The translations under genes were made by a program, and so were the position numbers. 64,000 nucleotides of DNA from Morchella semilibera (taxonomy: Eukaryota; Ascomycota; Pezizomycetes; Pezizales; Morchellaceae), in contig CM018603.1 of assembly GCA_009192285.1 (NCBI GenBank), positions 124,001 to 188,000 on the forward strand, read 5' to 3'. Under the pieces are notes generated by a model, which did no database searches, had not been told where the DNA came from, and saw only the letters and a list, made by a program, of their open reading frames with translations. Shown here one piece after another: positions 1-62,314 of the stretch. Every line of letters begins with the position of its first letter. Position 1 is the first letter of the stretch.

Positions 1-2975
1 GATGAACCCCCCCCCCCTTTCAGCTTTGACCAGTAACTACATGCACGCTTAATAGAAAAGCTATAGCCAACTCTGACTTACAGCGTGGGCTCTTTTTTCT
101 TTTTTCCCTTTCTTGTGCCGCGCTATGGTATACGTGCAGGTACTTACAGCCCAGAAGGGGGAGGGTTAGGCGGTTCGGGGGGGGATCACACACTACGTGC
201 CTGACAAGGCTCGAAAGTAAGGCCATGATATCTGAAGTGCCTTACAATTGTGTTCCTAGAGAGTTCTTTGTGCCTAGAAACGTTTTAATCTTCGTACAAA
301 TCTAATGCGCATGTCAGGAGCGTAATCATTTGAAGCTTGTAGGTATAATAGATACGTACGACCTGGTACAACGTGTAAACAAGGCAATAACGAATACGGG
401 CCCAACTCGGCCTATCATCTAGGCTGTGATGTTACTATTGCCGGGGGTGACCACAACATCAAGGGTCCTTCAGTGTATATGTAGGTATCTTTGCCAAGCT
501 ATCGTCATCGATTAGCAGATAATCCCGGGGTATTGATTATTTTGCAATTGCACGTATGATCGATCGCCTATCTAAGCCCCTGCCCACGGATTAAGAGCAG
601 GAACTACCCGAAGAGTCGGCTTGATTTGTAAAAGAAGTTGGGCGGATTTTACCTTGTGAGCCGAGTTTATTATTATTAATACCCGCACCGATGACTGTAT
701 TATTCCACCAATTCTAGGAATTAATGCAAGGCATTGCAATTGTGGAAGGGTTTAAGAGTATTGAGACCTCATAGGCAGTAAGCTTATAATTAATGGAATG
801 ACGCGTCTGAGAGAGAGTGGAGTAGATCATGAAGAGTGTGTAGAGTATGAGTACTACATGTATATACATGTACCTACTCATAGACTCATGATCATGTAGT
901 TGGAATGTAATTACATAATGGGGATGAACACAAGAGACCCTGCAGGACGGATGCAAAGACGTAGACACTGCATGATGTGTTCTACTTAATTAGCCTCTGC
1001 CGCTTTCATCCCAGGTTTGGTACCCCACTAAAGATACCTATCAGACGGAACAAATTTACATGTATGTACATAATAGACTGGTATATCTATTACATCCCAT
1101 ATTTTATCGTTTTATCCGGGCTTGGCCTTATAGATGGATTTAATAACGAATTGTGTGCAACTTGTAGCCAGGAATGCTCAGCTTGGCCTTATCGAGAAGG
1201 TGATGAGGAAATTCGGGCCTTTCGTGGGAAATACATGTATACCTGCATACAAAGTAATATCGGGGGAACGTTGGTCCATGTAAGCAGGCCGTATCGCTTG
1301 AATAGGCGAGTATTAGTAGATGTGTAAGTACAAGTACCCGGAGTAGAGTAACTACGTTCACTCATGACGGAGTGAGTGCAGATCCAATCTGGTTGCCTAA
1401 CCGACTATTTTTGCCCATATGCAGGCCCCAGTCCGGCTAACTTCGGAAGAAACCGATGCATCAATACCTTATCCATCATACATACATACAACACCAAATC
1501 GCCCGTGCTTATTAGTATATATATGTACTTACTTGATAACACATCGAGGTCCTTAAGGTATTCACTAACCCCCTCAGATTCCGATCAACTCGCTCCTCTC
1601 GATCTCGCCCATAAATCTAGCAATTCTTGGGGTACTAACTATTGTTGAGAACCACTCGACTGCACACAGTTAGCTGGGAGACTTTAAGAGCCTATGCCCG
1701 AATTGCTGCAGATTTGCACGTGCACCAGTCTTGGCATGCACCGTCTGCTGTTTGTGCGGTGCCAACGTCGACAATTTTGCAGAGGAGCTGAAACCCCTTA
1801 AAGGAAGGGATCAGAGCCTTTTAGACAATTGCTGATCTGTACAGCGCCTATTGCGACTTGCAGGACGATTGTCAGCTGTCAAAATTCTTTGCTCGCGAAA
1901 AAATATTAGGGCGTTTGCAACGTAGATGTTGGATAGTTCCCATTTATGTGGTGCTTCACCAAATACAAGCCCTACACCAACACTGGGCGCAATGTCTAGG
2001 ATGGCCAGATTGGGAACTTGAATATTTCTTTCCTCTGTCGGCCCCGGGGACAACTGGCCAGGAAATCGCAATAGGTGCTCTACTAGGTACACCCTCGACG
2101 CTGGACTGCCGCCCTGTTTGATAGTGGTGGCGCGGGTATTTTCGAGCACAAACTAGCTAAACACTTCACTGCGGCTTCTCGATATAGATACATAAATGCG
2201 CTATAGCGCTTGGATAAACCACGACCATACATTCCCATATGTATAGCTGCTAGGGCAATTCTAAAGTCGCTACTCAACCTATCGGAGGATGCGAAGGTGG
2301 TTTTGGAGGATATTCAGGTAATACCAGCATCCTGTGGAGAGCTGGCGGAAAGATTAAGCACCTAAGATATCTCGGAGGTGAATACATGCAGAGAAACTAC
2401 CCGAGTTAGTTTTCTCCCATTACGAAGAGGTGTGCAATAGCTTGTCTAAAGGGCTTAACATGCACCTCAAAGGGTTAGAGTATTAGAGTATAAGTTCATC
2501 AGTGGATTGAATGAGGTACTGGACGACGTTAGATCAAACTATTTTCACCGGGAACCCGTGGAACAAAGCCCCTGGTACATGTGGATTTGAAGCCAGTGAA
2601 GGGGGAATTGGTAGAGCTTTGTAAGTTGATGGAGCAGTTGGAATTTATGGCCATGAGGCCGAGAATAACTCTCGGGGGTGCTTCATAGAAGGGGATTGGG
2701 ATTTGGGACTTGTAAATACTGTAAAGAACATATTTGAATATCATGAATTTTATTATTATATAACCTGTGAATCTATACAGTTGGGGCTAGGAGAACAGGA
2801 AAACATCTTGTCAATCAATAATCGCCAATATTGGAAGCAGTTGCCACCGGTATCAATAGACCACGGTAAAGTAAAATAGATGGCATTATTATTTTATGCT
2901 GATCCTCTAGCTTCTAGTGATTTATTTATATCGGTAGGAAATACAACTAATAATGAAGTTCATCCAGATGGTAAA
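1..2975. other. Intergenic, no supported gene
   Basis: I see no gene here that I can support. Short open frames occur on both strands but have no recognisable domains and often no ATG. Around 2,580-2,745 (+) there is about 40 codons of open frame that reads like degraded coding sequence, flanked by stops; I could not assign it. TACATGTA palindromes are at about 854, 865, 1057 and 1232. Confidence 0.5.
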
Positions 2976-4046: not shown

Positions 4047-5756
4047 TTTTGCAGTTATTAAACCGGTAATAACGGAATTTGGTAATATAAACAAACTGAA
4101 AAGCAAATAACTATATATTTATAAAAAATAAGAATGAATGGACCTGCCCTGGGGTGAGTGAAGTGATCAAGCGGAAAGAACGAATGTGCGAATGAGTAAG
4201 AACTAAAGGGCCGGGAAGGTCGTCCTTTATGTACATTATTACATCAAGCTTTGGCCATGAGGAAGGATCGATTAATGTTTCGTGAGGTTCCAAGCTACTG
4301 TACCTGCATGGGAAGGAGGGTATTGGGCGATCCCTAATCGGTATCCGGTAGGGTGATGATTAGTTATTTAGCAAAACTACATGTAGTGCTTAAGAGCTTA
4401 ATATAATATACTTATATGGCTGGAATAATAAACTTGATACACACAGGACATCAAGATGCATTTACATGTCTATAAAGAGAAAATGGGTGTAAAAAGGATA
4501 CATACCGTACCTCGTTTGTACCTTAGTCGAATAAAACACCAGAACTGCATTACGTTTAGACCTTTAACAGAGCCAGATTTGAGAGGCATCGCATAAAATC
4601 ATAAACAAAAGGTCCACTACATGTGTATGTAGTTGAATAATCAACTCATCCGTCTCGGGCCGATGAGGGGGTTCTTCACCGGTAACTATACCGCTGAAGA
4701 AGCCTATTTCTGCGTCTCTTATTCACCATCTGCGTGTACCGGTAAAACAATGGGTGATGTGATAACGATGTTACACCATGTACCAGCTCTGCGGAGAACC
4801 TCCTGCTCTCGCCTCCTGTTATGTGAACCCACCCCTAGATCCGTCTGCTCCGGGGCTGTGGAGACTTTTACTTTAAAGTTGCGGGGCGGGCTTCTTGAAG
4901 AGTAAGGCTGATGCTACTAATAGCCAGGGTAACCCAATCTATTAAGGTGGAGTGCATTTATATGAGTTTCGATCCCTGCACACAATTGTTTGATCGATGG
5001 TCTTAATGCCAAGATTTATTCGCTCAGCCTCTTCTCGCCGCGGCCGCTGCTTGGGTTTATTTGGTTTGTCATCATGTAGTTCATGCAGGACTTTCAGCCG
5101 ATCGGTCTCTTCATAATGTAGTTAACAGTCAGGTATGAGTGATATAACTGGAAGTCTCTTAGTTGCGGGCGGACAGGTCTCGGTCTGCCAGACTGTCCTA
5201 TCAGGTAATGAGGCAACAAACACCAGTCCATTCGTGATAGAGATCAAGGACCGAGTTTCAGTAATCATCGAGGCCTTTGGGTCTGTTAAAGGTGTCTGAA
5301 CATCATGGGTTGGGTACAGGTATGTATAGTACTGGCACCGCGCTCAAGGTCCAGTCACACAATGCCATCAATGCCACCGGCCCTCAAACCCCAAACATCT
5401 CGGGAAATGATAGTGATGGCGCGCCAGGGGGGATAATTCGGTTATCCATGCCGAAGCCCTGAAGAAATTTAAGGCTTGCTCGATATTATTTCATGGACTA
5501 GGGGTGTCCATAACTCTCTTGAGTGCTCCTCCTAGGCACATATAGATTTAAAGCCTTTCACACAATTATGTTCATTTTTTAAATAGAATATAGTTATTGG
5601 CTTTTATCGTCGCCACTTCCAGCAATTATGCGCTCAGTTGCTACGCTTCCTGCTCTGCATTACTTCAGTAAGCAAAAACCCATACTAGATCTGATACAAA
5701 GAAGGTTTTGTAAGCCAATTAAATATACATGGACCTACTTACTACTAACTAATATA
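4047..5756. other. Intergenic, no supported gene
   Basis: This holds the AA14 promoter side at its left end and otherwise nothing I can assign. One TACATGTA palindrome is near 4379. Open frames such as 4633-4905 (+) show no family features. Confidence 0.5.
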
Positions 5757-9668: not shown

Positions 9669-11221
9669 CGTGGTGGCCGTGGTAGTTGTAGGTCTGTTTA
9701 TAAGATGAGGTATAGTCGCTATATAGAAATTTCCCTACTATGTTCTGCTTCGGGATCGAATTCGTATCGTGATGTTGAGGGGAGAAGGGATGATGACGTC
9801 TCTTAAGGTTTATTGAATCTCGGTTATTCACGGCCCTTTGCAGATCATCACTTGCAAGCCAGCCCCTGTAAGGATATGCAAGTAGATAGCGATAAGACCT
9901 TCGTGTCAAGTCATGCACGAGCAGCGCTGCTAATACAGACATTACATGTACTTATTAAGACTTAGGGACCTATGGAAGCCTCTTACTTGCCTACATGTAC
10001 CTTCCCACAATGTAGAGTAGGTACCTACATGTATACATGTACTATCGTTGTGAGATACATACATGTATATACTTGTAGATAAAGTAGACCAGACCAACTT
10101 TGCGGCAGGCTAATAACGTTTAAAGCCAGGGTCCAAACCGTTGCCAAGCTGACGATCTTATACTAGTACGGGCAAACAACCACAATACAATCAGTTGGAT
10201 GGTTCGCCATACCATGGTTTGAACAGGTTGTGGTGCAGTTAATCGGAGGTTGAACCCGGAGGTTTACTTAATAAAAAAGTCAAGCAATGTTTTAGTTTCC
10301 GAGTAGTAAAATGGCTTATAGAGGTATTTTACTACGTTAGATTTATGGTCATGGTAATCCACGCAGTTATCGGTGAGTACATTCTTTCATGGTTTCTCAC
10401 AGCCTGGGAGGGGCTGGCGTATTAATAACTACATGTAATATCTATTAGTTGGGATCTCTTTCGTCGATTGGCCGCTGCTTGGCAGGTTCACTCGTTCGGT
10501 TTTTACAAAGGCAAGTCTCAGGCCTCGATGGTTTTCTTTTCTATAGGTTGCTTTACAGGAGGATATATATGCTCGGGGTACATCCCGAGTCAGTAATTGG
10601 CGGAGAAGTAGAACATGAATTCTATGCGAGAATACGGTAGCTGAACAAGTTCTCAAAATAAGACAAAGTGAAAGTTTGCAACACATTCATTTGGAATATA
10701 CTAAATAGCTGTATAGAGAACCAAGTGCAAAGTATCCATCAACTGGCTGAGAAACTTAATCATTGGAGCCATGGGAACTGGTGCTCCTGGAGTATATGGT
10801 CTGATCGAGAATGATGAAGAGCACGGTGTTTACAAGAGGTTATGTACTCATCCAAAGAAACTGTGTACAGTGTGACATAGGTAGTCTTGTGTAATACGTG
10901 CTCGGAGTACTCATTTATTCTGAGCGGGGCCTGTTTGGAGAAAGTGTCAAGATTTGAAGTGTTGATTTGTAGTCCATCTGTCTACAATAGTTAGGCCCCC
11001 CGCAAAGGAGTTTAGTTTATGAGCGGTCATATTATTAACGTTACCTAGCCACTCGAACACCCCCCTCACTCGAACAACTGATAACGATTGGTGAGTTGGT
11101 AGTAGAGGGGCCGGTTACAACGAAGATCCTTTTCGAGTGACTAGGGAAGTCGCGCCTATATGTAAGCGCTCCGTTGCGGCCGGCGGGGGATCTCTTAAAC
11201 TTATCAGGCAACCGCGAAGCA
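9669..11221. other. Intergenic, HGD promoter side and upstream of MYND-CVNH gene
   Basis: Contains a TATATAG box for HGD near 9719-9725 (minus strand) and a dense run of TACATGTA palindromes between 9944 and 10066, with another at 10431. The MYND-CVNH gene starts at the right edge; a longer in-frame extension back to 11174 begins with TTG and was not used. No other gene seen. Confidence 0.5.
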
Positions 11222-12297: not shown

Positions 12298-14602
12298 GTC
12301 TCTGTTACGATACTACAACTGGGTTTCTACATGTACCCGGAGTATGACATTACTATGAGCGGGGGGCCCCCGAAATAAAAATGAATGAGTTCTCTGAATA
12401 AACACTTGAATCAAAATTGTAAATTGTAAATGTAGACACGTAGACTATATATCGTCAGTCGAAGAAAAATCAATGTATATATCACCAATTATGTAACTGA
12501 ACAGCCCAAAATGCAAACCCCGTCCTCCCATGACCTCACCCATCGATCATATTGCCCAACTCAAAAACAGGCTCGCCAGCTCACCAACACAGCCCGCCTG
12601 AAATGCCGCCGCAAAAGCTCGGAGCGAGCTAGGAGGTCTCCGATCACCGCCAACTAAAGCGTCCAGGCATTCCCTGGCGCCCTAGCTAACGTCCGGCGCC
12701 TGGCGATGCAGGCCCTTGATGTAAAACACGACCCTACTAAGGTAAACATTTTAACCTATATTCATCTTCTTTTGGAAAACGATCTGCGGGGAATTTCGAA
12801 TTGCTGGTAAGAACCTACGTGCATAATTGGGGCTACTAAAGATACTTAACCACAGCGTACTACTGCCATGGGTTTATACTTCATAAGCCATAAGAAAGCC
12901 ACCCGGTGTACTAGTCGATCTGAACTTTAGATTATATTTCTAGGGTCCGGATCCCATCGGAACTTAACTAACGACAGAGATCCGGTAATCTCTCCCGAAT
13001 AGTCATGTATGTAGGTAGGTACTACGGGTGTAGGGGTAAGTCTCCAGAACTATGGCCTGTTGCAACCATGGCCGTAGTTCTGGAGACTTACCCCTACCCC
13101 CGTAGTACATCTATATCTACAAATTACTCTAGGCACCTACTCTAACGGGTTTGACCCCTGCATAGCTAGTTCCACTACCCGTGGTTACAACATCAATAAC
13201 ACTTCCAATGCGCTATCATACCCTCTACACTTTAAATAACCTATCCGATGAAGGTCCCCTGGAGCAGGGCCCGCCTTCTCAAAAGCTCTTTACGTACGAC
13301 CTACAACGTGCAACCATCCATGGTTAATGGTATAAGCTCCTATGTACCCCGCGCTCAACGGGTGATTTACACACTTCCCGCTGCCGTCTTCACCAGCCCG
13401 CTCTATCTAGCTAGCACATCGAGAGGGGGGGTGGGTTCTAAAGAATCTGGACCTGTATTTCACCCAGGGTACACCATTCGGGGCGAGAAACACGATTAAG
13501 TGGCACCCCTTGAAATTTCAAACAGCCCGCTAGAATGGGGAGGTGGAGGATCAGCATGGGTTAACGGAAATGAAGCTTTATCTCGACCAACCAATCATCG
13601 GGATAGAGCTCTAACCGTTTTTAACACAGAGTCATCTCTGCAGAGGCTGAGAGGAACAAGCCGGGCGCCTATGGGGGCCGGGGAACAGGCGTTACAGTGT
13701 AACAGAGTTACAATCCGTATATGCATATATAATTATTATCAAGACGGTAACTTCTTGCGTTACAGTATCACAAGATTTAAAGAGGGGTGAGAAAGAAAGA
13801 AGAAAGAAAAAAGGAGAAGGAAAACAAGAGCATCTGTGAAACTACATACCTAAGATTAATTCAGGAAAACGTTGTAATGACTGCGGTACTGCCACTATAC
13901 TCTTGACTGGGAGAATAAAACTTGACTTCCCAGAATCCCGCACTGACCCGAGCAATGTCATTCATTATATTAGTCCTAGCCTGCATTTCCGAGATTGAGA
14001 ATAGTGGTCATGAACTATCACTCGACGATGCAACCCTCTCAAAAGGCTCCCCCCCCCCCAACCGGCCCGCAAAACCTGCTGCCCAGAGAACCATATAACA
14101 GTGCCCGGGCTACAGCCATGTCCCACACAAAGATCGGGAATATGTTATTACATCGGACTTGTCCATGGATAACAGAACGACCACGCAACTCGAGCATAAA
14201 ACCTTCCAGTCGAGTGGAAAAGCCTGTAGAGTCTGAGGATCAGGGGTGAGAAACTTGTAAATATACATGTATATATAAATACACCGACATTGCAAAAACA
14301 CGAAGACGCCCACTTTCCGGACCACTATACGTCCCCCCTCCCCTCTCCCCCGGGTCATTAGTACAATAACCACACTCAGCTGTAGTATTTACCCATCTCC
14401 AGACTCTCGTGTTATACTATTATCGTTCCCCGTGTGCGGAGTGCCCTTTTTCGAGCTTAGCTACGTACACCACCGTACATAGCGGCAGAAAGCGTGTGTA
14501 GCCTATCTATCTGGGATACTAGCCCTCCATATATGCCAGTAAGTTTTCTCCCAGCCAGCTCATCTCACCATAAACCGCAGTCAGCGCGATATCCGGCCCC
14601 TG
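12298..14602. other. Intergenic, no supported gene
   Basis: No gene seen. It holds a strong hairpin at 13019-13108 (listed separately) and TACATGTA palindromes near 12327 and 14263. Open frames at 13248-13790 lack ATG starts or family features. Confidence 0.5.
13019..13108. repeat. Long near-perfect inverted repeat (38-bp arms)
   Basis: Left arm 13019-13056 and right arm 13071-13108 are complementary at 36 of 38 positions, with a 14-nt loop. The arms begin GTACTACGGG and include TAAGTCTCCAGAAC. Either a foldback/MITE insertion or a transcribed hairpin would explain it; no coding potential. Confidence 0.85.
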
Positions 14603-14715
14603 TACAGCGGTAGGTAATAAGTGATGGAACACAGTGATGCCTGTTTTGGTAAAACGCCACCAACATTTGGTGTTTGTACCTCAGGGCGTTCCATCACTTA
14701 TTACCTGTCGCTGTA
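14603..14715. mobile_element. 113-bp TA-bounded MITE, copy 1
   Basis: Inverted repeats of about 28 bp: TACAGCGG(T)AGGTAATAAG at the left and its near-complement at the right, meeting GTGATGGAAC inside. The core, including ACGCCACCAACATTTGGTGT, is almost identical to the core of the second copy at 47616-47729, 33 kb away in the same orientation. TA at each end suggests a Tc1/mariner-type non-autonomous element. Confidence 0.86.
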
Positions 14716-17238
14716 CTGTGCAGACGGACATGGACCATATCCGTATTCCTCCAGCTCCAGCTCCATGATCCAGCCACGTATACGCCGTGCTCAAGGGCGC
14801 ACAGAGTGGTACGTTATCAGTATGTAATAGGTACATATACATGTACTCTACATGTATGGGGGCCTTCGGCGCCCCCTCTCCCCTCTGCTCCTTCCCCCAA
14901 TTTCCGCCAGTTTGACCTTTCATTTCCCTGTGATGCAATTCAGTCCACAAGTTTTGATGCGTTGCCAAGGAAAGGATCTTTTCACTCATAAACTACAACG
15001 ACACAAAGAAAAGCATCGTGGCGTGGCCTAGTGGTAATACACTGGGCTTCGTCATATGACCACGACAGGTTCAAACCCTGGTGGGAGCAGTGATGAGAAT
15101 GCCCAACATGGTAGCGACGCTCTTGAGGGATGACACTCACTCACATAAGTCTTTTGTTGCCGGCTTTTTTTTATCATTTAATTATTTTTTTTAGCCTTGG
15201 GCGCCCCCGGGGGCCTCTCCGCATTCTTCCTCTATGTTAATTATGGAACCCTCTGGCGGTACCCTCATGTGTCGTGCTTAGTCAAATACCCCATATTACA
15301 GAAATATTCGAAACGGGTGTAATCAAGTACAGTATATAATAGACATACAGTTTATACATCAAATTGAAGTAATACCTGAGGTTGAGAACAATTGCTTGTA
15401 TTGAGGAGAGGAGAGGTTTCAACCTGCCCCTCTCGATATAAGTACAGTTCCTTCTTAGTAGACAACCCTTACTATGTAATTAATGAAGTAAACAAAAACA
15501 AAAAAAGACAACTCTTACTCCATGCTTATTAATATATCTTTAGCGGTATCGTAAAGTAGACTACCACACAAATGGCCTGTATATACATGTACTTAACCCT
15601 CGCCCTGCAACCGTGGCCCTGCGAGCCTTGTACACAAACGGGCTGAAAAGACTATCCTAGAAGAAGAAATACATTGGTTGCGACGATCGTGATAACTCCT
15701 CTGTGCCATGACCGGGTTGCATGTCGACAGCTAAGTAATTGATTCTTGATATAAAAAAGCATGAACCCCAAGCACAGCAACTAAGCCCCAGCGAACAGCT
15801 ACAGACCGGCCCTTTGCGGAGCACGCATGTTGTGCTGAGGTATAACCATGTAGACAGATATGTACTAGTTCTATCAATGCCTCTCCTGTGTTGTATTATA
15901 TTATTAGACCCAGCTATCGCGACAAAGAAACCAGCCCTATCACACACATATGCACGCACGATCAATGTCTCACCACGGCCCGACCCAAGATCCCCCCAAA
16001 GCCACACAGCGCCTCACCCGGTGAAGAGGGCATTGTATCTATCTATCTATGTACTCCATCTACACCATCTACCTGCACACGCGATCGACTGCACTGCACA
16101 CTGTCTCGGGGGGCTGCAGCCATGTATGTACATATGTACTCGGGTCCCAGTCTCAGACCAGGTCTGCACTCCAAAGTCCATGACCCCAAAAACGCACTTA
16201 AACCCCCCCAACCAGCAAAAATCCCTCTCCCGAAACCTGGCGAGTGACGGCCCATGACTGCGGCCAACCAGAGGTAGGGAAGGAAGTATGTACCTCCGCG
16301 GGCGGGCCGGGGTGCATACATACACATACACATAAACAGATCTTCATGTGCACTTTTACGCATCAACCAACCACCGACCAACCGGAGCTCATCAGCTCCC
16401 AGCCACCCACCACCCACCCAGCCATCTCATAAACGATTTGGTATCACACCGGAGGGATGAGCATCACAATATGACGGTATGACGGGTTGTGAAAACGGGT
16501 TTTGGTAATAGATAAATATACATATGACATACAGGGCGATAACAGAGACCAGAAGTGGAGTGCTGCCATCTACTCGTCTCACACAATGCAATGCCCCCCC
16601 CTAAAAATAAATAAATAAAAGAGATCAAGCCAGTTGGTCGATATAGTAGTAGGTAGATATTCAAGTATTGTTGTAGCTTATTTGCTTTTCTCGCTGGAAA
16701 TAAAGAAAAATGGAAAAATGGAATCCCAAACCCCAGATGAATACGCAGAAACGCAGAAAAAGCAGAAAGGAAAAATAAACCCCCGGAAAGAATAGTCCAT
16801 GGAAAACCAAAAGGAGAAATTGTACAGCAATGCTAAATAACCAGCCGCCGCCGCCGCCCGCAAACATCTAATAAACAGTCAGTACCCCCAATCCGATCCA
16901 TTCCGCTCCGATCCATCCTCTAGTTAAGTTAATCCCAAGCCTCCTGCACCGCTCTCCCGAACCGCTCCCCTCGCCCTTCGTAGTCAAAAGAAGAAAAATT
17001 ATAAAGAAGGCCAAAGAAACTATGTAGGAAAAATTAAGACAAAAAAAAAGGAAAAATTAAAGAAGGGCGCTTTTTTTCTAAACCGACTCACTATCACATT
17101 CATCTCCTTCGCAACCGGAACCCAAAAAAAAAGAAAGAAAAGAAAGAAAACTCCGGCTGTCAAATGAGTCCCTGAATCACCGTCGTAGCTCCATCCTTTT
17201 TGTATTTGAAGAAAGAAAAACCCTAGCTTGCCGCATCA
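14716..17238. other. Intergenic, 3' flank of the DUF8004-like gene
   Basis: No gene supported. It contains the SINE candidate (15019-15172), A-rich stretches at 17030-17150 that probably belong to the 3' UTR of the leftward gene at 17239-20500, and TACATGTA palindromes near 14836, 14849 and 15583. Overlapping open frames at 15657-16420 on both strands lack family features and are judged chance. Confidence 0.5.
15019..15172 (+). mobile_element. tRNA-derived SINE candidate
   Basis: A pol III A box (TGGCCTAGTGG, 15024-15034) and B box (GGTTCAAACCC, 15068-15078) are 33 bp apart, and the B box sits in a good T-arm (CAGG/CCTG). The anticodon arm does not fold, so it is not a working tRNA. About 90 bp of unrelated sequence follows, ending in a run of eight T (15165-15172) that would stop pol III. 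This is the layout of a short tRNA-derived SINE; a lone tRNA pseudogene is the alternative. Confidence 0.6.
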
Positions 17239-20500: not shown

Positions 20501-20509
20501 GATTATTCA

Positions 20510-36275: not shown

Positions 36276-36914
36276 CTGATGTGGCTTTTAATTTGTGGTA
36301 AGACGCTGTGGAGGTACACGCTAAGCTTGGCATAGTTGTAAGGTCATGGAGGTCACGTACATGTACGTACGTTTTGCCAGACAAGCTGGCTATACATGTA
36401 GTATTCTGTCGGCATCTTATATTAACTTGGCTTTTCTTTCTTCCTAAATAGACAAGTAAAGAATACACCGAGCCTCAAAACGCCACTGGAATAACGACTG
36501 CAGACTCCACACCAACTTCACGTACTGATGCCTGTCGGGTTAAGATAAGTCTTCCGAAAGCTAAGATTCAACCCACTGTCCTGTCATCCACACGTGGTAA
36601 ATTTCATAGATCTTGCACCAAGGAAAAACCAAGGCGCTCAAGATTCTCCCGAGCACCGATAACTAAATGTTAATAGACTTTACCCTACCCCTAATGAGGC
36701 AGGCAAACTAGAAGCAAGTAGTGGCAAAGGCGCATATCATATGCACGACAGATCGATACTTTATGTGGATATTCAATATCTGGAGTAAGTAGGGGTGTGT
36801 AGCTAGGGGGGGTCATCGAGTGTATATATGAATGTCCAAAGGCCCCCCCTTCGATCCCTCTTTTTCGACAGGACAGTGGGTTCATTCAGAAACTCTCCAG
36901 AAACAACTCTCAAG

Positions 36915-41780: not shown

Positions 41781-42403
41781 TTTTAATGTGTGTTTTCGAT
41801 AGGAAACTAAATCAGAGAATGGTATTGAGGTGATGTTGATGTCAAGCTTCCGGAGTAGAGGGGCATTCAGGGCCTACTTATCTAACTAACCAACCCCACC
41901 AGACCCTAGGTCTACTCGACATTCTTGGCTAGAAGACATCATTGCCTCCTCTTCATCAATTAGTTTTAATTTTTCCGAGATGCGCCGCGGTAATGCTATC
42001 TAGAGTTGGAGCTGCAGGCGCTGGTTCCCAACATGTAACTACCTCGCTGTTTTGTTCCTGAGAGACCGAATGTTTTATCCAGAGTTCGGTTGCACTCTGC
42101 TAACGCTCACGATCGAAGTGTAATTATACCGAAAGAGCTCCCAGATGTTTTCTCCGCATTTTCGGTTAATAATGTCGTGATACAGCTAAGCTGCCAGGCA
42201 CGATGCTACTATTTAGCCGAGATGATCATTGGTTCCCCGCAGTACATGACAGTGGGTTAGGGTTACGCTACCTCTCTAGTGCAAGTGGTTTGTGGATATA
42301 TGGAGATGTGGGTAGCTACATGTAACTGCAAATACTAGAGCTGAGAGTCTTGGAATCTCCCCGACTTTATTCACGAAAAAAGACATACATTTACGCATCA
42401 GCA
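41781..42403. promoter_or_regulatory. Divergent promoter region
   Basis: The 623 bp between the start codons of the Gfo/Idh/MocA gene (-) and the DUF2264 gene (+). It contains one TACATGTA palindrome (about 42317) and a GTGGATATATGG stretch near 42291 that could be the TATA box of the rightward gene. No open frame of note. Shared control is inferred from the arrangement. Confidence 0.6.
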
Positions 42404-44489: not shown

Positions 44490-47134
44490 TAATGGTATGT
44501 AGTTTATTTATACGTACATCTGAATAACAGATTATTATAAGCCTGGATTTCCTATGGCTTTTACCTTACAAAAACTTCACTGTACCCTCATAATTAATGA
44601 ATATAGATGGACCTTGCCATAACGCCAAAGTGGAGGCCAGTTCCCATTTCTTATAGCAAAAAACCAGCCCCCCAGATTTCTTACGGCAAATAGGATTTTA
44701 GTGCAGAGCTTTAGCGTATACGTACCCTGCAGGTTATATCTTACAGCATAATTTTTCTACTGCGAGGTTTCTTGTAGCGAGATGCAGCTGCACGTCAATC
44801 AATTTATCAAGGGGTTAGACATGAAATATCACTCGGATGTTTTTAAACCGTACCTATGTAAATAGGCTCAACCAATCACCTTTCAACACTTAAGCTTTTG
44901 TTCTCGCGGTAATTTGTCCCGACATCCCGATATCCCCACACTCCGAGTCAAAGGCCAAGAGAAAATATGTCGCGCAAAATGCGTGTGAAGGGCTGAACCG
45001 ACGAGAGTGGGGGTTAGAATAGATGTGCCCGTGCGGTTATGAAACATTCATTGAGCTCATGGAGCTGCAGGATTGGCGTCATCAATATGCATCGCAATCT
45101 CCCACTCCAGCTTTATGTTCAATAGAGTGGGGATAGCCTCCCGCAGTACCGGGAGGTGGGAGGGTTTAGATTTGGGCACCTGAATGGATTCGCTTCAGAG
45201 CTAAAATACCTCGAGGAAAATCTAGCCCTACGAGCATCGGTAGGTTCTGGTGACACTAAACAGAAATAGGCCAGTGGCCAATCACGACGGACCATAGGCC
45301 GGTCTACTCGCGACAGGTAAGAGGTACGTACCCGAATATGCAAGGGCTGAGATGCAATTGCTGTGGAAAATACATGAATACAATGTGGCTACATTTCCGG
45401 CTATTTGTTACCTGCCGCGAGTATATATCTTTCCAAGAGCTACCAGGAGAAGTACAAGCCTAAACAACCTAGTGTCTTTTTTTGAAATTTAGACATAGAG
45501 AAAGACTTAAAGTGACAATCTGTAAAGTTTAATAAAATACAATACGACATCAATTCTCAACTAGCGTCGCTCAAGTACCATAGGTTAGAGTTAAGGCTAA
45601 ATCGTTAGTAATTCATGTAGTTACGATAAAGATAAAGCTTTAAAGAGTGTATGAACACCATTCGCGAATGGAAGGGCATCTAGGAAGGCAAATGGAAGGA
45701 GGGAGGTTTTCAAGATTATGAAATACAAATTTAATCGTATAAGGGAGCAATTGAATATGGACATCGCCCTTTAGCTACATACAATCAATAATTTAACTAC
45801 AAGGAGCAAACGAGTTGGCCCCATGAGGGAACCTTCGGGGGGGCGAGCGAGGTCGCAAGTTCGTATTTTCTGGCTTGGTATTCGAGTGGGTTCTCTGCTC
45901 CAAGAGAGTTCTCCTAGCACTCGGTGCCCGAATCGGACATGTGGATTTACATCAATGGAATATTATAAGGTGGGCAGGTGCAAGTTGGGTTATTCCAAAC
46001 TCATTGGTGAAGCTCTGCATGCGTGCTTAGAGCTGGCTGAGCTGGTTAACGAAGTAATAACTAAATAAACAACAAACAACAGGGAGAAAAAAAAGCCCAG
46101 CCCACCAATCGAGTGCGTCACTATGGAGCACTCGAATTTACCAATACATGAGTTTAGTCCTATGATCACTTTACTGTTCATCGTACAGCTGTACAGTATA
46201 AGGTGGAACACAATTATGTAACAGCTGTATGAAACACCAAAAGCAAAAATACCCACATATCTACGTATATTCTGGGCTCAACCTTCGAATACATTCTCAT
46301 CCGAACGGATGTCCAGGTTTGACATAATACCCGTCCGTATATAATGAATTGCATTGGGATAATGGTAATATTCGTATTCATAGGACATAACATCACTCGC
46401 TCTTACTATATCGGAATCCTCATATCTTTAGTATGTTTCGGGCCCAGCCGTGTCGATCCCGTCGAAGCCAGCACCGAAGTTAGCACCGAGTGCGATTCCA
46501 TGAAAGGAATTCAAAAACATGCACAATGCACGTGCATACATGTACATATAAATCATGGATAGACGTACTACACGCCCCCCACTTACCTCCTTCCCCCACG
46601 ACCAACAGAATAAAAAGAAACCCTCCCATTGCCCACGCGCAGCCACGTGGGGGCCGGGTTATAACTATCCCAAGACTGTACAAACCATAAGACCAACAGG
46701 AGCTCTAGCATTCTAGCTATATATATATATAGCTACATGTATGTTAGGGTTTGGTCCTGTCGACATGCCTAGACCTCAAAAGGCTAATCTACTAATTGCA
46801 TTGGCGAGGACAGATCTAGAGCCCTTAGCTCTAGGCCTCTGGCTTTAACAAGGTGACCCCCGCTTTTTAAATACAAGACTTTTGCCCATCTATGAAACAC
46901 AAATCACATATAAGACAATAGGTTCTTTTTTAATCGGGAGATAAAAGCGTCATGCATACATGTACATGTATTTACCGTTGAGACTCGAAATAAGAGCCCG
47001 GGATTAATTAATGCAAAAGAACGGAGTTATATATAGCTGCGGGCAAGACATAAAGCAACCGATCAGACGACCTAGATCTAGATTTGACCCCTTGTATCCG
47101 GGCCGTTCTTTTGAGAACTGGCGGTACCCGAGTC
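44490..47134. other. Intergenic, no supported gene
   Basis: Contains the pogo-like MITE copy B (44577-44793) and TACATGTA palindromes near 46537, 46732 and 46956. A TA run with AGCTATATATATATATAGCT lies near 46715-46734. No gene seen. Confidence 0.5.
44577..44793. mobile_element. Pogo/Tigger-like MITE, copy B
   Basis: Reads as copy A (39000-39184) on the opposite strand: from the right end, GTGCAGCTGCATCTCGCTAC, AAGAAACCTCGC, GCTGTAAGAT, CTGCAGGGTAC, CGCTAAAGCTCTGCACTAAA, ending with AACGCCAAAG near 44622. The left end is more diverged (ACTGTACCCTC), so the exact boundary is uncertain. It starts 88 bp after the DUF2264 stop codon. Confidence 0.7.
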
Positions 47135-47255
47135 TACTCCCCATTTCACCGCGTTTTCGAACACAACCGCTATTGCATGCCACACAAAAACCCACTAAGT
47201 CGCATTTCTATATGTAGTAGTGGTTGTGTTTGAAAACGTTGTGAACTGGGGAGTA
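47135..47255. mobile_element. 121-bp TA-bounded MITE, twin 1
   Basis: Inverted repeats of about 45 bp at roughly 80% identity: TACTCCCCATTTCACCGCGT at the left, complement of TACTCCCCAGTTCACAACGT at the right, continuing through TTTTCRAACACAACC. The loop holds CACACAAAAACCCAC. A relative begins 80 bp further on. Confidence 0.82.
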
Positions 47256-47334
47256 TACATGTATGTATCATCTAGCTTATATGTATTTATGTATGAACTC
47301 TAGTTAGAGTATTCTATGCATATTTGTAGCCATC

Positions 47335-47467
47335 TACTCGTAATTTTATAGCGTTTCTGAACTCAGCTGCTATCACATATACAGAAAAAACCCGCCAAAG
47401 CTACATGTACCTTTTTGTATGGTATGCAATAGTGGCCGTGTTCGGAAACGTCACGAATTTACGGGTA
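47335..47467. mobile_element. 133-bp TA-bounded MITE, twin 2
   Basis: Same family as twin 1 but more diverged: ends TACTCGTAATTTTATAGCGT and the complement of TACCCGTAAATTCGTGACGT, then TTTC(T/C)GAAC. Its right arm contains CCGAACACGGCCACTATTGC, close to the left arm of twin 1, and its loop has AGAAAAAACCCGCCA. Confidence 0.72.
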
Positions 47468-47615: not shown

Positions 47616-47729
47616 TACAGCGGCAGGTAATAAGTGATGGAACGCAGTGATGCCTGTTTTGGTGAAACGCCACCAACATTTGGTGTTTGTACTCTCAAGG
47701 CGTTCCGTGGTTCACCAGCTGTGGCTGTA
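47616..47729. mobile_element. 114-bp TA-bounded MITE, copy 2
   Basis: Core and left arm nearly identical to copy 1 (14603-14715): TACAGCGGCAGGTAATAAGT at the left and ACGCCACCAACATTTGGTGT inside. The right arm keeps only its outer GGCTGTA and inner GGCGTTCC; the 16-20 bp between (GTGGTTCACCAGCTGT) no longer complements the left arm. Confidence 0.84.
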
Positions 47730-48731: not shown

Positions 48732-49953
48732 TTCCGCTACCCCCAACTCTATAGACCTCGTATCATATATGTATATGTGTTTTTTTCTCCTCTATTCGCC
48801 TACAGTCTCTGTTCCTGCCTTTCCGTATCCACTTACTAACTCTAAGTGGCTAGCAGTGTATATGGGATAGATAGCGTGGGGTGTGCTCTTAAGTCACATC
48901 GAAAGAGAGGAGACAGGGGTTTAGGATTATTCTAGTTCGACGCCTCATACTGCCGGCGGCGAGACACAGGATATGTTGACACATCGGTCAGGCGCCAATA
49001 AATGGTCAAGGCAGATCATAAGGGGAGAAGACATACGTTAATATCGTAGGTGATTCATTTCTTTCCTTCTTTAACATTCGATTCGATTCTCAAGGCAGTC
49101 ATTCTACTCAGCCCTTCATTGACTCAAACCGATTCAATTCAGCTTTAGTATATACGTACATGTACATCTTAGAGCTTACAAATCTACCCATCTCGATCAA
49201 GACCAAGCGCCTGCAGTTGGTGTTCATAAGGCATCACTCGACAAGACTATGAATACCGTGCTCAGATCAGACATGTGAATTCTGGGGCTAATACTATCTT
49301 ATTGTTATTGTTAGACGACGTCGACTTTAAATTTGTTGATTGCATGAGGATAGTACGCGCCAAGGAATTACTTTGATTACATACATACATGTATATGATG
49401 TTACATAGGTAAAAAGGAGGCTCAACTCATGCATGTACCGCATGTACCGCATGTACCTGCGTGAAGTGACACTTACACCAACGTCGTATGATGTCTAGCT
49501 AAAAAAGAAAAGAAAAAAATGCTAGATAATAGAAGTAAGTCTTTACCCAATATCAACAAACACCTGTTTATTGAGCGAAAATGACAGTATTGAAGTTGAA
49601 ACATCCGGGTTACATCTGCAAGCTGCAGGCTATATATGCCCGGGCTTTCTAGAAAAATAAAAACCTCCATTGTTCCGGTGAGCTAGCTCTGAAATATCGT
49701 ACGTACGGGGGCTTTTTAATACCCTTTATAACTAAATATTGTCTAGCCATGGTTCGACGATAATCGAGAACATGACAGTTTATATATTCGGGACTCTCGG
49801 CCCTCGGTGGCTTGCTTCGTCAGCTAGGAACATCCTAGAGCTGTACTGAATACATTTACCTTACATTTGCCCTACATGAAACATTCTTCTCATCTCGATA
49901 GATCGATCTATCAATTCAATTCACTCTAAGGTTACAAATTGCAAGATAACGCC

Positions 49954-50579: not shown

Positions 50580-53500
50580 GATTGATTGATTGGCTTTTCT
50601 GTTGAAAGTAGACGAGTTTGCTTGTGATTGAGTATTTATATATTGCCGCTTGTGGTGGCCGGCGGGAATATAAAATTGCAGCTGCCCGGAGCTATAGTGT
50701 TGTGATGTATCCTGATTTTCGTTTATTGGGTCCTTTCTTCCTTAGCTGGCTGTTTGAATGTTCCCGGCCGATGAATGATAGTTCTGGAAGCTTTGCGGAG
50801 GACCGTATGGGAGATATATAAATTTGGATGTGGATAGGGTGCGTTGACTATCTAGGGTTGTGAATTTAAAGTTTATAGACGTTGGAAATGCCCTTATTTA
50901 TATGCAGCTCCCATACCTCCCACAGTACATCTGACGCGGCCGGTAATGGCAAATGAGAAGGGGTATCTCTAGTTTTCCGGGCTACCTTGAGCTGTTGCAT
51001 CTTGGCCAGGGGTGCTTGCTGTGTGTCTAACTCTGTATGTACAATTAGTATGTATCTAATGTTTACACTCTTTCTTGTTGGCTAACCAAGCAGTGTCAAG
51101 ACATACAAGTGATTCCTCGTGTCAATGAGACCCTTGGAGTTAAGAAGAATCTAGGATGCTACGGCAATCGCCATTGATCGTATATCTCCCTCCATCGTTG
51201 ATGGTTAAGCCCTTGGATACCCATTAACTGTCTGTGCACGAGGGAAGCTACAGACATGCGATGAAAGTCATTCATGCGCAATCACTCGAGACCGTTATAC
51301 TCTGCGTGCATGCGCCTAAGCCTTTCGTCATGGTCAGGTGGGTTCTAAACACACGATAGGCCGAGGGGAGGTAGAATTAGCTATGTGAGCAGGCTTCCAA
51401 TACGACAGTAAGGCTTTCTAAACCTATATTTTTTCTATATACTCACTAACTCCTAGGCCTATATTACTAATTTGGTATATAAATTCTCAGTAGTATACGG
51501 GGCCTAGAGTCCCCGAACCTCAGAGTCCAGGTAAGAATTACAAAAGGCCAGATCACGGATGATACTAGTCCCGTCGTGTGTATCTAAATGGCTCAGAGAT
51601 TACCCAGCGATACCGCCGCCGCCAATAACTTCACATCATGACCACCCGACTGCTGCTGCGCCGCGAATTCGAAAGGGATCTTTGGGTTCTAGAACTGTTT
51701 TAATTTTGTTTTGCACATGTCAGGGGCACTGAAAGCCATCGGGTTTATTACCGACTCAAAGTGCGAGGCCAAAGTCGAAGGTAAAGGATCAATATTCGAA
51801 TAATCAAAATCTACTAATTCTATGTCGGTATATAGTACGATAAGGGGATGACTAGCTTTCATGGGTAATCACTCGCCAGTGTGGACAAGTTCAGCTGAAC
51901 GCACCTACATGCACCTATGTATGTACATGTACCTGAGGGTGGGCTATGGTGGTCCCATACTTAGGCCATGGCCACTGCCCGATGGTGTTTCGAACACTAA
52001 CTACATGTAATATAGTCGCTATAGCAAAAGATATTATTCTATCGATGGGTGGTTACGGGGGTCCGGCATTCCGGAGCTCCTAGAGTAGTAGCTATGGGAT
52101 GTGTGGGTTATTGATTTATCCCCGACCGGTTTAGCTATGTAGCAGGCTACTAATTGTTGCGGTTGTTTTCCCGTACTCTACATACAACCGGGCCGAGCTC
52201 GAGTTATCATCCCCATCTATATTCCCTACCACCCTTTACCCCAGCTCGAGCTCTACAAGTACCCCGACAAGCACCGATAATATATGGAGGATCCTAGCTA
52301 AATTGCGTGTAGGCTGTCGACCGTTGACGTACGTTAATATTATGATGTCACCCTGTAGGATCACCGGCCGGTGCTCCTCTAGTGGGGCTTCTCTGTCCCT
52401 GAAATGCAGGGCGTAGGCATCATTGTGTAATTTCACATTCCCCCTGTGGTGGTGGTACTTTGTGTAACGGTTGCTGAGATCCGGGGTAGCTAAATTGGGG
52501 AGTCGCATGCCCTTCTAAATACATTCTAGACCATTTTCTGTATCTGTCGCCCAAGAATAACTTTGCGAAACCGATGTCTTTCATGTGTTAAAAACTCGGT
52601 TATCACAGCGGAAGAACCTTATTTGATCATCCCCCCCTACCCACTGTAGCTACTAGTAGAAGTTTATCCAGCAAGTTACTACATGTTCGTAGGGATCCCT
52701 TGCATACTGGGACGTTGTTAGGTTGGTTACGATTGGGGAAACGACGTTTGGTTCACGCATCACCCAATTACCTTCAACGGGCTTGGCTCCGGAACATAAA
52801 TTGCCCGGTATATATGTAGATACATGTTAGTCTCAGGGTCGGAGTGTTTGTCTCGAGCCCGGAGATACATGCGGTTTGAGATGCCGGCCGTCGACTTTAT
52901 CACCGTAGGTGGATATGTGCCGAGGTTCGCCCGCCCTAATTATTTCGTGAATCCAATATGGTGAGTGGTGGTGATAATGAAATAAAATCCAGAACCTGTT
53001 TCCTCTGCGTGATACGATGCTCAGTAATATGTATATAACACTGCTCGCCTTGCAGTCACTACGTAAATTCAATAGGCACAGCTGTACAGGTGATCAATCT
53101 CGTGAAGGATCGAACCAATGATTACAACAGGCCATATAACTAATGTTGTATGTACGTACGTGCAGTCATAGCTACGATGCTATCTATATACTGGCCCTTG
53201 CAGTGTTATCTGAATTAAGAGTGGAGGTAGAGGTCATACGAAGGCTATACCCACGTGGGCAGTGTCTTTCTTTGGTGATTTGTACCTGGACAGGCCCAGG
53301 ACCCTAGGAATAATATAATATATCGCTGATCAACTACACAATATGAATGTATCTAGTACATAGATCAATCCTTGCATGAAGTTCCTAAAGTCGCGTTTTT
53401 TTTTGTTACTATTATATTGTATAGCCTATCCTTACTCCAGGAACGATATCCGATAAGAAAAGGGCCCGCGAGTCTCTTATAATCCAGTTATTGTTATGTT

Positions 53501-57700: not shown

Positions 57701-58640
57701 GATGATGCCGTTCATGGACTCCCGTGTTCTTGCAGCATTGTACATATGTACATGTAGTTACGTATACTCTACGAGCTTGACTGAGTGTCGAAGAGGGTCG
57801 AAGGAGGTATGATGACATCCCATAATGTCGAGTCATCTTGATTGATTGATGCCTTCTGAATAGCGTACGTCTGAGGTAATAGTGAGCATGAGAGGTGCTG
57901 GTTCGAGTGAACTCTTCTCGGCAAAATTGCATATGTATGTAAGTGGGCAAGTATATATAATGTATGTACTACAATGTACATACTCATTTTCCTACATCGA
58001 TCTTTCTCCACTTTATTCCTCACTCAAAGATGACCCGCTCAGGTTCTCTCCGGTGGTATCCTCCACGGAATTACACGTATGTTAGCTCAACTCTATATAC
58101 CACTCCATAGCTTTACGGTAGAATATCTGGCTGCAAAAGTAATCATATATGTATGTTATAAAGCCTGAGTTAGAACGAAATCCCGCATATTATAACAATT
58201 ACCTACATTAGCTAGATCACACAAATAGACGACGAATGACAGACGCTGTATCTCATTAACGTATAGTTTTGGCTTTGTTCGATATCAAAAGAAACGAAAA
58301 GAAAATAAAACCCGCTCTGCACTGCAAGCCTTGTGAAATCTACCACCCTCTCGCTAAGACTCAACCCGGTTACTGCTGCCGCGTAAATCTCAACCATATT
58401 TGATACCCGAGATATGTGAGATGGCGGAGTTGCCGAGAGACTCCCGCGACGGGCCTCTGCGTATGCCTTGAGTGTAGATCCAGATAAGCTATCCAGTACC
58501 CCGCCATGTACACAACCCTAACCTTAGAAGCGATTTTCGGTCTTCAGATTACCTGTTCAAGGTCGCCTCCCAAAATTCATATGATATGATTGCTTCAATA
58601 AATCTCTATTAATTACATGTATCGCTGGTTGAAGCATCGG

Positions 58641-58761: not shown

Positions 58762-59746
58762 ACATGCTCTTCATCACACCTAAAACTTCCTATTTCAACT
58801 TCTTACTCCACCACCCCATAAAGAAGGATACATGTACCTATAGTTTTAATAGGATCCTTGCCAAGACTCATTAATGTATCTGCCTTGGCACATTTTTATC
58901 AGCGTAAATCCCTTTTACACTCCATACATACATGTAGGGTGTGAATGCGCGCTTCTACGTGCGCACATATGACAACCCCCCAATCCCCAGTTACGATAGA
59001 CACATCTACATACGTAAGTAAGTACGTATTATTAGTTAAAATCTCGTATTACTCTAATGGATATAGCGAAACTAATAAAACTCTTGTTTACACCAAACGA
59101 TCCAAATAAACAGCTTATATTTATGCTGACCCCCTCCCACACGAATATCGTTAGTCAAGCAATAATTTAATAATATACTGCGGAACATTCATGACATGTT
59201 TGATGTAGGAGATTTCAGGAACCTTCCCGGCCCGCCGCAACGTGTGCGATCGATTCTGTATATTAAATTACCCAGTGTAACGGCCGGCTAATTTTTTCCC
59301 AGCGATCTCCCCCCAACCAGGTTCGGTCAGAGTGAATACGTACAGTCCACCCAAAGCTTATCAAGAGTCAAATGGGAAGGCGGAACCGGAAGTTAGAGAA
59401 AGCATCTATCAGAACGATATATGCTTAATTAAGGGACTGGTGGGTTTGAAAAAAAAAATCTTGATCGAGCAGTTTAATTGACATCCTACACCCCCCCCCC
59501 CCCAAACAACCTCTCTACAACCTCGCTAGCAAAAGCGCGAAGCCGGCCCGTATATTATTCGACTCAAAATCAAACGCACGATACGAGCTACGTGATTTCC
59601 ACAAACTATTGCAATCAATTTGTGTAGCAGATAAAGACAAGTGAGGTATAGGTGTATATGGTTGATGTGGTCACATCATATGTCACGTTTTACCGTCACA
59701 TCAGGGTAAAAAGGATTTGATCATAATTAGAGACCTGCAACTCAAC

Positions 59747-59818
59747 GGTTCTATAGTGTAATGGTTAGCACCCAGGATTCTGATTCCTGTAATCCCGGTT
59801 CGACTCCGGGTAGGACCT
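59747..59818 (+). tRNA. tRNA-Gln (anticodon CTG)
   Basis: A full 72-nt cloverleaf: acceptor stem GGTTCTA pairs with TAGGACC (one G-T wobble), the anticodon arm is CAGGA-TTCTGAT-TCCTG with anticodon CTG, and the T-arm is CCCGG-TTCGACT-CCGGG. The A box (TAGTGTAATGG) and B box (GGTTCGACTCC) are intact. No intron, and CCA is not encoded, as expected for a eukaryotic nuclear tRNA. It reads CAG codons. Confidence 0.97.
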
Positions 59819-60127: not shown

Positions 60128-60295
60128 TACAGTCCACAGTCCATCCAGTCCGTCCAAATTTTGGGCGGACTGTCTTGGACGGACGGACCAGTCACAGTCT
60201 ACTGAAGTCCTACAGTCCAAACAGTCCGCCCTATTTCCTTCTACTGTCTCAGCTGGCGCAGTCGACTACAGTTGACTCTAGTCGGACGGGGCTGC
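60128..60295. repeat. AGTCC/GGACT-rich imperfect inverted repeat
   Basis: CAGTCC or its complement GGACTG recurs about a dozen times in 170 bp. The left half (CAGTCCACAGTCCATCCAGT, then CCGTCCAA) is loosely complementary to TTGGACGGACGGACCAGTCA just to the right. Mechanism unknown. Confidence 0.65.
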
Positions 60296-62314
60296 TCGCG
60301 GCGTTGAACGGACCACTACAGATCAATTGCATCTTGAGCGGTCCGACCAATTAGACATACATATATATGCCCTACAGCTGCCGTTCGCCCGATAGGACCA
60401 CGGCCTAGGCCATCACACCGACACGGGATTCAGACCGCAATGATAGCTTAGAACCAACGCCACGGCCCGCAGTCTAAGACATTCGGGATGAAGATCGGTG
60501 CGCCAGAGATGGATGCTCCTGGCGCGGCTACCAAACTCGTGCTAGTTGTTAGGGCGAGTTTCAAAATGCTTAAAAGGATTTAACTCGGTGGATGTCTTTT
60601 GGTGATTTCCCCCGAGTTTGAAATTGGGAGTATTGATACAGGGAGCTGGCTTGTTGTGGTTGAAGGCTTGTTTCGTTGGGGCGATGAATGCGTCTTTGGT
60701 GGTGGGCGAGTGAGGACCCATGATCCCCCCGGTTTATACCGTAGGGGAGGATCTTGTAACTGTCAACGGCGCATGGGGATGCTAGTAAGAGTTGCAATGT
60801 GGCCCACGAAGCACGATTATGGGGGTTGTTATTGATCGAGTCCCTCTGTTTCGAGAAAAGCTGTCCCAGACCGCCCCACATACATATATGCCTAGAGTTT
60901 TTCGACGGCTCTCGGGACTTGATAATGAATGATAAGCTCTGTGAAGTATGAATGAGAACAATGACCGAATTGGTAGTAGAGAGGAACTTCAGTATTTTCA
61001 CCACAGCTAGATTACAGCCACCCGGTTTAGGAATTAGTCCTAAGAATGAATGTGTTCTGGTTAGCGAGGCTTTGGCAGAAAATGCACTGTATCGAGCCCC
61101 TACCTTGGGCCTCGTAGACCGTACTGGCTGAACAGCTAGACTTTCTGTGACCGAAGGCTATCTGTTATTTCATCCTCCGAGTATTATTCAGTGCTTGAGA
61201 TGTTTGGTATGGTGTGATGTGTGTGGAAAGAGACATTGTCGTGTTGTAGAGGGAGTGGTTAAGGTTGCTGTAACAAAGACCTCAGGGTATGCGCGTATTT
61301 GTTGGGACCGTAACAAATATTACCGCGTATTTTGACAAAATGTAAAAGTCGTGGCATTGAGCCTAGGTGGCTACGTTGCTATGCATTCCAATACACATGT
61401 ACATGTATGTACATGTATATACATGCTGCGACAGTGTCAACAATCAAGCTCAGGTACAGATAACACACGCATTGCTCTACTAGATGGCAGTTAGGAAATA
61501 CATCGTTTGATTCTTGCTTTTGCTAATACGTTACCAATAGGGTCCTTTTAGAATGATTCTCCGAGAATCTTTCCAGCGCCTCTCCCACGGCCACTCGTAT
61601 GTATGAATTCCTCCTCACACAACAGATCTATTCTTTACTGATGTATTTCATATGATACATATTGTAGTATCATAAAAACAGGATGGCACCTCATACATGT
61701 ATCTTCCCAGCTGGTAATGGAGACCATCCATTACGCACTGCAGCTGAGCCTAGCTTCTCATTGGTGTAGCTTTTGGGAAGTGGGCTAAACATACGGAGAT
61801 GCATGGCTCCCACCAAAAATCCCTTGCAGTAGATCTCAACTGGCCTTTTACACGTTGGGAAATGACATGCATATATGTATGCCTACATGTAGTGACCTAC
61901 ATGTATTTCTCAGGTGTCGAGTCTGTGGGGAGGGGGGCTCACAATCATAATTGTATTACCCAACAATGGCGAGGGGCCAACGGCGATATATCAACGATTT
62001 TTCTTCGCCCGAAAATGCCTCTAGATCTAGATCGATCACCAAGTCATTCTCAATATACCACTGGGTATAATTGGGCGCATCTGTTTCACATCCAGTTAAA
62101 CGTATGAGATGTCCACGCGGGGAGATATAGATCTAATTATCTGTTATCGATAAGCTGACCCCACCAAACAAGCCTTGGCAACACTGCCAAAACGGGACAG
62201 ATCAACAAATTGTATCATAACCGCCCGCATTGCAACATCCAATAATACCTCATCCATATCACCAGAAACCCCCCCCCCCCAATCTTAATGACACCCCATA
62301 TGTGGATCTAGAGG

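Follow-up and report, generated by a model that had tools for sequence, protein, structure and literature searches.

A palindromic 8-mer in the window

The window analysed here, that is, the whole stretch of 64,000 bases of Morchella semilibera DNA at G000:C1:124001-188000, contains predicted genes (its frames have Pfam matches to homogentisate dioxygenase, AA14, DUF2264 and a sugar transporter, in keeping with a filamentous ascomycete), miniature inverted-repeat transposable elements (MITEs), a tRNA gene and 53 exact copies of the palindromic 8-mer TACATGTA, which is the subject of this study. Only 1.4 or 2.4 copies are expected from a first-order or a second-order Markov model, respectively, and the runner-up palindrome in the window, AT repeats excluded, is ATGTACAT (n = 16). 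A preliminary description of this DNA had estimated about fifty copies in 64 kb where near one would be expected, and the clusters that it reported are present at 855/865, 9943-10060, 14838/14849 and 61400/61410. The copies are listed below with no strand assigned.

855..862, copy 1
865..872, copy 2
1057..1064, copy 3
1232..1239, copy 4
4378..4385, copy 5
9943..9950, copy 6
9992..9999, copy 7
10026..10033, copy 8
10034..10041, copy 9
10060..10067, copy 10
10430..10437, copy 11
12328..12335, copy 12
14264..14271, copy 13
14838..14845, copy 14
14849..14856, copy 15
15584..15591, copy 16
22677..22684, copy 17
22712..22719, copy 18
25640..25647, copy 19
25857..25864, copy 20
25936..25943, copy 21
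26104..26111, copy 22
26682..26689, copy 23
27874..27881, copy 24, retained in a diverged duplicate at C2:2478073 (L030)
28679..28686, copy 25
31592..31599, copy 26
31908..31915, copy 27
33246..33253, copy 28
33938..33945, copy 29
36358..36365, copy 30
36393..36400, copy 31
39869..39876, copy 32
39901..39908, copy 33
42317..42324, copy 34
46537..46544, copy 35
46734..46741, copy 36
46957..46964, copy 37, overlaps copy 38, the two jointly reading TACATGTACATGTA
46963..46970, copy 38
47256..47263, copy 39, abuts the end of the TA-flanked MITE 47135..47255
47402..47409, copy 40, inside the degenerate MITE 47335..47467
49157..49164, copy 41
49386..49393, copy 42
51924..51931, copy 43
52002..52009, copy 44
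57749..57756, copy 45
58614..58621, copy 46
58829..58836, copy 47
58929..58936, copy 48
61400..61407, copy 49
61410..61417, copy 50
61694..61701, copy 51
61884..61891, copy 52
61898..61905, copy 53

The excess extends to the whole genome

In the whole assembly (56,756,124 bases, 23 contigs) TACATGTA occurs 22,206 times and a reversed-word control 3,723 times. Base composition alone (47% G+C) would lead to about 1,100 copies, so that the excess is about 20-fold, although genome-wide counts are inflated because some contigs are near-identical duplicates. Such duplicated pairs are C9/C10, C12/C13 and parts of C21/C22, the last of these being deduced from matching hit positions. The excess is thereby confirmed and extended from the window to the genome, and, as far as could be checked, the word is neither near its Markov expectation genome-wide nor equally frequent in exons, the two outcomes that the preliminary description had set against its own claim.

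For finer analyses, a sample consisting of the window and twenty 10-kb stretches was used (264 kb, 145 copies). Two pairs of stretches, L017/L018 and L020/L021, were near-identical, and the deduplicated sample comprises 244 kb with 137 copies; copies counted out of 137 refer to the latter, whereas core, spacing and distance-bin figures refer to the full 264 kb. Alignments of the two near-identical pairs (one block each) showed short indels only, most of them within or next to base runs. The aligned blocks hold no copy of TACATGTA, hence they are uninformative on its decay or polymorphism. When 8-mers with at least 24 hits on both strands were compared with a third-order model of non-coding DNA, TACATGTA was the most over-represented (12.3-fold). 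The other 8-bp palindromes pooled amounted to 853 against 709 expected, or 1.2-fold, six words being excluded (TACATGTA, ATGTACAT and AT and CG repeats). Words of related form in which TA recurs every four bases (TGTATGTA, GTAGGTAC and GTACGTAC) were also elevated. The non-palindromic word ATCACTCG is likewise over-represented in the non-coding sample (45 against 5.3 expected, both strands).

Copies are at chance in coding DNA and scarce beside it

The model that predicted the coding segments is codon-periodic and was trained on long open frames; the segments are not curated genes. None of the 53 copies in the window falls inside one of its 15 predicted coding segments, and the 67.6 kb predicted as coding in the deduplicated sample hold one of the 137 copies, compared to 0.39-0.47 expected from codon-periodic models. 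Clearly, coding DNA is at chance for TACATGTA while non-coding DNA is hugely enriched. The preliminary description had found no copy in exons, which holds for the coding segments of the window; avoidance of exons, however, is rejected because fewer than one copy is expected there, and the idea that the word is the target of an avoided modification finds no support in exons that are at expectation.

The 34 kb that lie within 250 bp of predicted coding segments hold 5 sites, or 0.15 per kb. In farther distance bins it ranges from 0.19 to 1.67 per kb, and beyond 4 kb it is 0.76-0.80 per kb, as measured from predicted genes, to which some genes may have been lost by the prediction. Between 250 and 1000 bp upstream of coding segments 1.2-1.5 copies per kb were found, compared to 0.4-0.9 downstream. 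Divergent, tandem and convergent intervals have 0.91, 0.69 and 0.48 copies per kb, respectively, a trend that is not significant (p = 0.09). One stretch with internal repeats and no coding segment (L025) holds a single copy.

A sharp core with soft symmetric flanks

The copies share the extended consensus TAnVTACATGTABnTA, in which a sharp core is surrounded by soft, symmetric flanks. In TACNNGTA the central pair is AT 141 times and every other pair at most 10 times. Among words of the form TA-N4-TA, CATG leads with 270 hits on both strands, followed by the simple repeat TATA with 130 and then by a word with 42, and it is CATG that carries the strongest flank signature. In the 264 kb, A is found at position -3 in 63% and T at -4 in 51% of the copies, T at -1 is rare (about 10%), G at -1 amounts to 22%, and position -2 has no preference; on the right side the preference is mirrored, with T at +3 and A at +4. 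In the deduplicated sample, 89/137 copies have A at -3 and 85/137 have T at +3, against a background of 0.31 for all TA. The two flanks are independent of each other, A at -3 and T at +3 occurring together in 57 copies where 55 are expected. These positions (-3A/+3T, -4T/+4A and the scarcity of T at -1) are the true extension of the word. In contrast, GTACATGTAC, which had been proposed as a frequent extension in the preliminary description, is at chance (7/137 against 6.7 expected) and was dropped.

Variants of TACATGTA with one mismatch numbered 170 where 105 were expected, an excess of about 65 loci beside 135 intact ones. The excess consists mainly of transitions and affects all four symmetric positions, and these variants look like products of decay of TACATGTA.

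Copies are moderately clustered, 17% of them lying less than 50 bp from the next compared to 5.6% at random, and pair distances showed no period by eye that would indicate a fixed spacing. Tandem Repeats Finder returned 16 rows for the window, and three short arrays (10033-10081, 47251-47318 and 61397-61425) overlap copies of TACATGTA. The word is nevertheless not a simple microsatellite, as had been stated before, since 83/137 copies have no other copy within 100 bp, and these isolated copies retain the extended flank consensus.

Most copies may be excision scars of DNA transposons

Our preferred interpretation, to which we give a probability of roughly 0.4 and which is therefore tentative, is that most copies of TACATGTA are excision scars of Tc1/mariner-type DNA transposons with 5'-CA...TG-3' ends. 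A CA...TG element would insert at TA and duplicate this target, giving TA-CA...TG-TA. In Tc1 chemistry the transposase makes its cut two bases into the element at each 5' end. After excision, the ends would be filled and joined to give TA-CA-TG-TA, that is TACATGTA, which exceeds the empty TA by six bases. Such scars would accumulate neutrally where they are tolerated and would be purged from exons and transcript ends. The word matches the scar formula exactly (TA, two plus two end bases of a CA...TG element, TA), and its spread across intergenic DNA together with its scarcity within 250 bp of coding segments is in agreement with such an origin, as are the decay-like variants with one mismatch. 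Also, A at -3 and T at +3 agree with the Tc1-type target rule ANNTANNT, described for Sleeping Beauty (PMC2756404). A weak form of the flanks is found at TA-CA-TA, the one-sided scar (142/410, background 0.26), but also at TA-CG-TA (0.38), which is not a scar of this kind. We infer that a single mechanism made most of the approximately 22,000 copies.

The comparisons of copies with their paralogues and with transposon families involve the following MITEs of the window.

14603..14715, + strand, MITE of the TA-CAGCGGTRGGTAA family, inverted ends CAGCGG...CGCTG, TA-flanked
47135..47255, + strand, MITE with ends CTCCCC...GGGGAG, TA-flanked, adjoining copy 39, relatives on C1, C4 and C23
47335..47467, + strand, older relative of the CTCCCC MITE, containing copy 40
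47616..47729, + strand, second TA-CAGCGGTRGGTAA MITE, with one end mismatch and an approximate right boundary

Copy 40 (47402) provides an empty-site comparison. Where the window reads AGC-TACATGTA-CCTTTTTG, the closest relative of its host MITE, L047, reads GAC-TA-CCTTTTTG. All 107 possible 6-bp deletions were scored. With L047 as the reference, the deletion at TACATGTA that leaves TA ranked first (gain 10; the next class reached 6). With L048, L049 or L050, three other relatives, the top-scoring 6-bp deletion (gain 10) begins 4-5 bases inside the word, which it overlaps, and a deletion placed exactly at the word gained 6. In total, six bases are missing at this site in 4/5 relatives, with the exact register in the closest one.

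Several observations weigh against an origin by excision. The deletion scan found no support in the neighbouring MITE of the window, the automatic alignments of 47402 with L047 split the gap, and the scan is less tidy than the comparison by eye. An insertion was seen only at 47402 among four paralogue cases, from which short weak BLAST matches (E 0.007 and above) had been excluded: copy 24 at 27874 and its duplicate L030 have TACATGTA in common, the word in L025 differs from two paralogues by substitutions, and L028/L032 were too diverged for a reading, also after ten further family members had been added. Two MITE copies about 6 bp longer than their families (L051 and L070) had been considered as scar candidates, and both lack TACATGTA. 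No insertion of TACATGTA was found in 20 aligned copies of an L027-type MITE (19 fetched and the L027 reference), nor a clear one in 42 aligned copies of the CAGCGG MITE (40 fetched of 52 listed ends and two from the window; a few could be aligned only in part), where L090 has TACATGTA at an ambiguous, possibly truncated end. The absence of a clear insertion in these 62 MITE copies is weak evidence because only 1-2 had been estimated. Three-base scars, TACAGTA and TACTGTA, are not enriched in the 244-kb sample. Finally, to our knowledge, about 22,000 fixed excisions far exceed any known case.

Near the right end of one L027-type MITE copy (L053), TA is replaced by TACTGTA, as a three-base Tc1-type scar would be expected to read.

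Resident elements with TA-CAG ends

A DDE_3 profile search of the genome gave 69 matches. Inverted ends were sought at seven of these loci and could be read at four (L035, L037, L045 and L046), all as TA-CAG; for L035 and L037 other TA registers fit equally well, and the register at CAG was chosen. With these four loci readable as TA-CAG and the CAGCGG MITEs ending in the same way, the genome contains resident elements that would leave TA-CA-TG-TA on excision. The L035-type element was considered as the source of the scars and discarded, with only three perfect ends genome-wide.

The TA-CAGCGGTRGGTAA (CAGCGG) family has 145 exact ends genome-wide, duplicated contigs included, 68 with A at -3 and 77 without. 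They show a strong preference for GTA as a target, with G at -1 in 137/145 and T at -2 in 94/145. Of the copies of TACATGTA, 22% have G at -1, and no base is preferred at -2. This counts against scars of the abundant resident family, and the differing bases at these positions indicate that it did not make most copies. If the scar interpretation is right, most scars would stem from an older or unsampled family, and we infer that the family responsible predates the abundant present-day one or is distinct from it. An origin specifically from the CAGCGG family and its resident autonomous relatives is thus highly improbable. Its CA...TG ends and TA duplications are of the proper kind, but apart from the largely refuting bases at -1, GTACATGTAC is at chance, and members of the family occupy TACATGTA sites as targets.

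The use of TACATGTA as a landing site by the CAGCGG MITE was partly seen. Of the listed ends, 11/52 have TACATG immediately to the left of the inserted TA (expectation per GTA 4.3%, p ~1e-5), and the same holds for 11/19 of the fetched ends with a preceding ATG (28% expected, p 0.005); L087 has CATGTA directly right of the TA. The 40 fetched copies are not a random choice, as they comprise 24/24 of the listed ends that have A at -3 and 16/28 of those without. The flank set consists of 41 rows, one MITE of the window being excluded for its end mismatch. L082 has its flanks in common with L103; the two are probably a single duplicated locus, and neither is a TACATG case. These data invite an extension of the scar interpretation in which each excision of a CA-ended element leaves TACATGTA as a preferred landing site, so that scars would breed scars until the word became the most over-represented one in non-coding DNA. 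The landing-site half of this process is the part that the 11/52 ends reflect; taken as a whole, we regard it as improbable. The proliferating micro-repeat suggested in the preliminary description comes close to the excision-scar interpretation, which replaces it with a concrete mechanism, namely scars that double as landing sites.

Another MITE family, with TA-CTCGGGGCAGGTAAA ends, is represented at L027:9110-9249 by one of dozens of copies with 85-99% identity, a range that suggests a rather young family. In L069, of this other family, no end could be read.

Comparison with known systems

The footprint taCATGta of Tc1 from Caenorhabditis elegans (Eide and Anderson, 1988, as cited in PMC3520976) is the identical 8-mer and has the same make-up, a TA duplication with two bases from each CA...TG end, and the flanks of the Morchella copies fit ANNTANNT. 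In contrast to that footprint, which is called rare in PMC3520976, there are about 22,000 copies in 56.8 Mb here.

The word TACATGTA is also motif-1 of Phytophthora, which in three species lies upstream of a total of 12,070 genes and is correlated with expression during infection (PMC3520976). The authors mention the Tc1 footprint, dismiss it for the abundance and conservation of the motif and propose Irx-type homeodomains; the passages of PMC3520976 covered here contain no test of the dismissed scar idea. In PMC3597505 the same word is M93, occurring 4,150 times in promoters of P. infestans, and beside it stands M94, TACCGGTA, which by our own reading would also fit a scar of the form TA-NN-N'N'-TA. 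The Morchella word thus resembles motif-1/M93 in being the same, very abundant 8-mer. Phytophthora, however, is an oomycete, and there the motif was investigated in the DNA upstream of genes and interpreted as a site for a transcription factor, whereas here the copies are spread far beyond promoters. For the same extreme 8-mer in two unrelated lineages, a shared transposon class might be an easier explanation than a shared protein, although this is an argument and not a test. Among the literature matches listed, none reports a genome-wide excess of TACATGTA in a fungus, and those with TACATGTA and motif as whole words concern Phytophthora only.

If most copies are scars, cut-and-paste transposition would have left a fossil record much larger than one would guess from the surviving elements, and abundant conserved palindromes that were taken for regulatory motifs in other genomes would need to be checked against transposon scars. 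Should the self-reinforcing process be true and operate in the same way in Phytophthora, the published infection-correlated motif would be partly transposon debris.

The palindrome HIP1 (GCGATCGC) of cyanobacteria also lies in coding DNA. Like HIP1, TACATGTA is one palindromic 8-mer at an extreme genome-wide excess, and unlike this bacterial word it is at chance in coding DNA. HIP1 is discussed in connection with DNA methyltransferases (PMC4390886).

Protein binding or a mutational process as alternatives

The main rival of the scar interpretation, to our mind somewhat less probable, is that TACATGTA is a candidate site of an abundant sequence-specific or architectural protein, binding as a homodimer to the inverted repeat, and that it is kept by weak intergenic selection. 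In its favour, the word is a perfect palindrome with a symmetric extended consensus, the copies are denser 250-1000 bp upstream than downstream of coding segments and decrease from divergent over tandem to convergent intervals, and in Phytophthora promoters the same word, motif-1/M93, is correlated with expression. However, the trend among interval types is not significant, the density more than 4 kb away from predicted genes is still 0.76-0.80 per kb (though genes may be missed), and near misses are transition-like at all positions, so that no position appears tolerant. The suggested Irx-type partner also fits poorly, as a six-frame search of the genome, which can miss split exons, gave a single match to the KN-homeobox (PF05920), reading WFINARR. 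Irx proteins have Ala at the corresponding position. The sole match is thus not Irx-like, which weakens this candidate. If the copies are protein sites, an uncharacterised DNA-binding protein would have roughly two perfect sites for each gene (22,206 copies and 11,565 predicted genes, PMC7014384).

It is quite improbable, in our estimation, that a mutational, slippage-type process spreads TACATGTA and related TA-NN-TA words with neither transposase nor selection. The elevation of TGTATGTA, GTAGGTAC and GTACGTAC, the clustering of copies within 50 bp and the substitutions that separate the word in L025 from its paralogues would be in agreement with it, but the preference for AT at the centre of TACNNGTA is far too sharp, the remaining 8-bp palindromes are raised only 1.2-fold, and isolated copies keep the extended consensus.

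Other features of the window

A repeat at 28825-28979 has a 66-bp conserved block with over 30 occurrences in the genome; ARAGORN detected no tRNA in this repeat, and it has no Rfam match. The sole match of the window to Rfam above the gathering score is the following gene.

59747-59818, tRNA-Gln (CTG) gene

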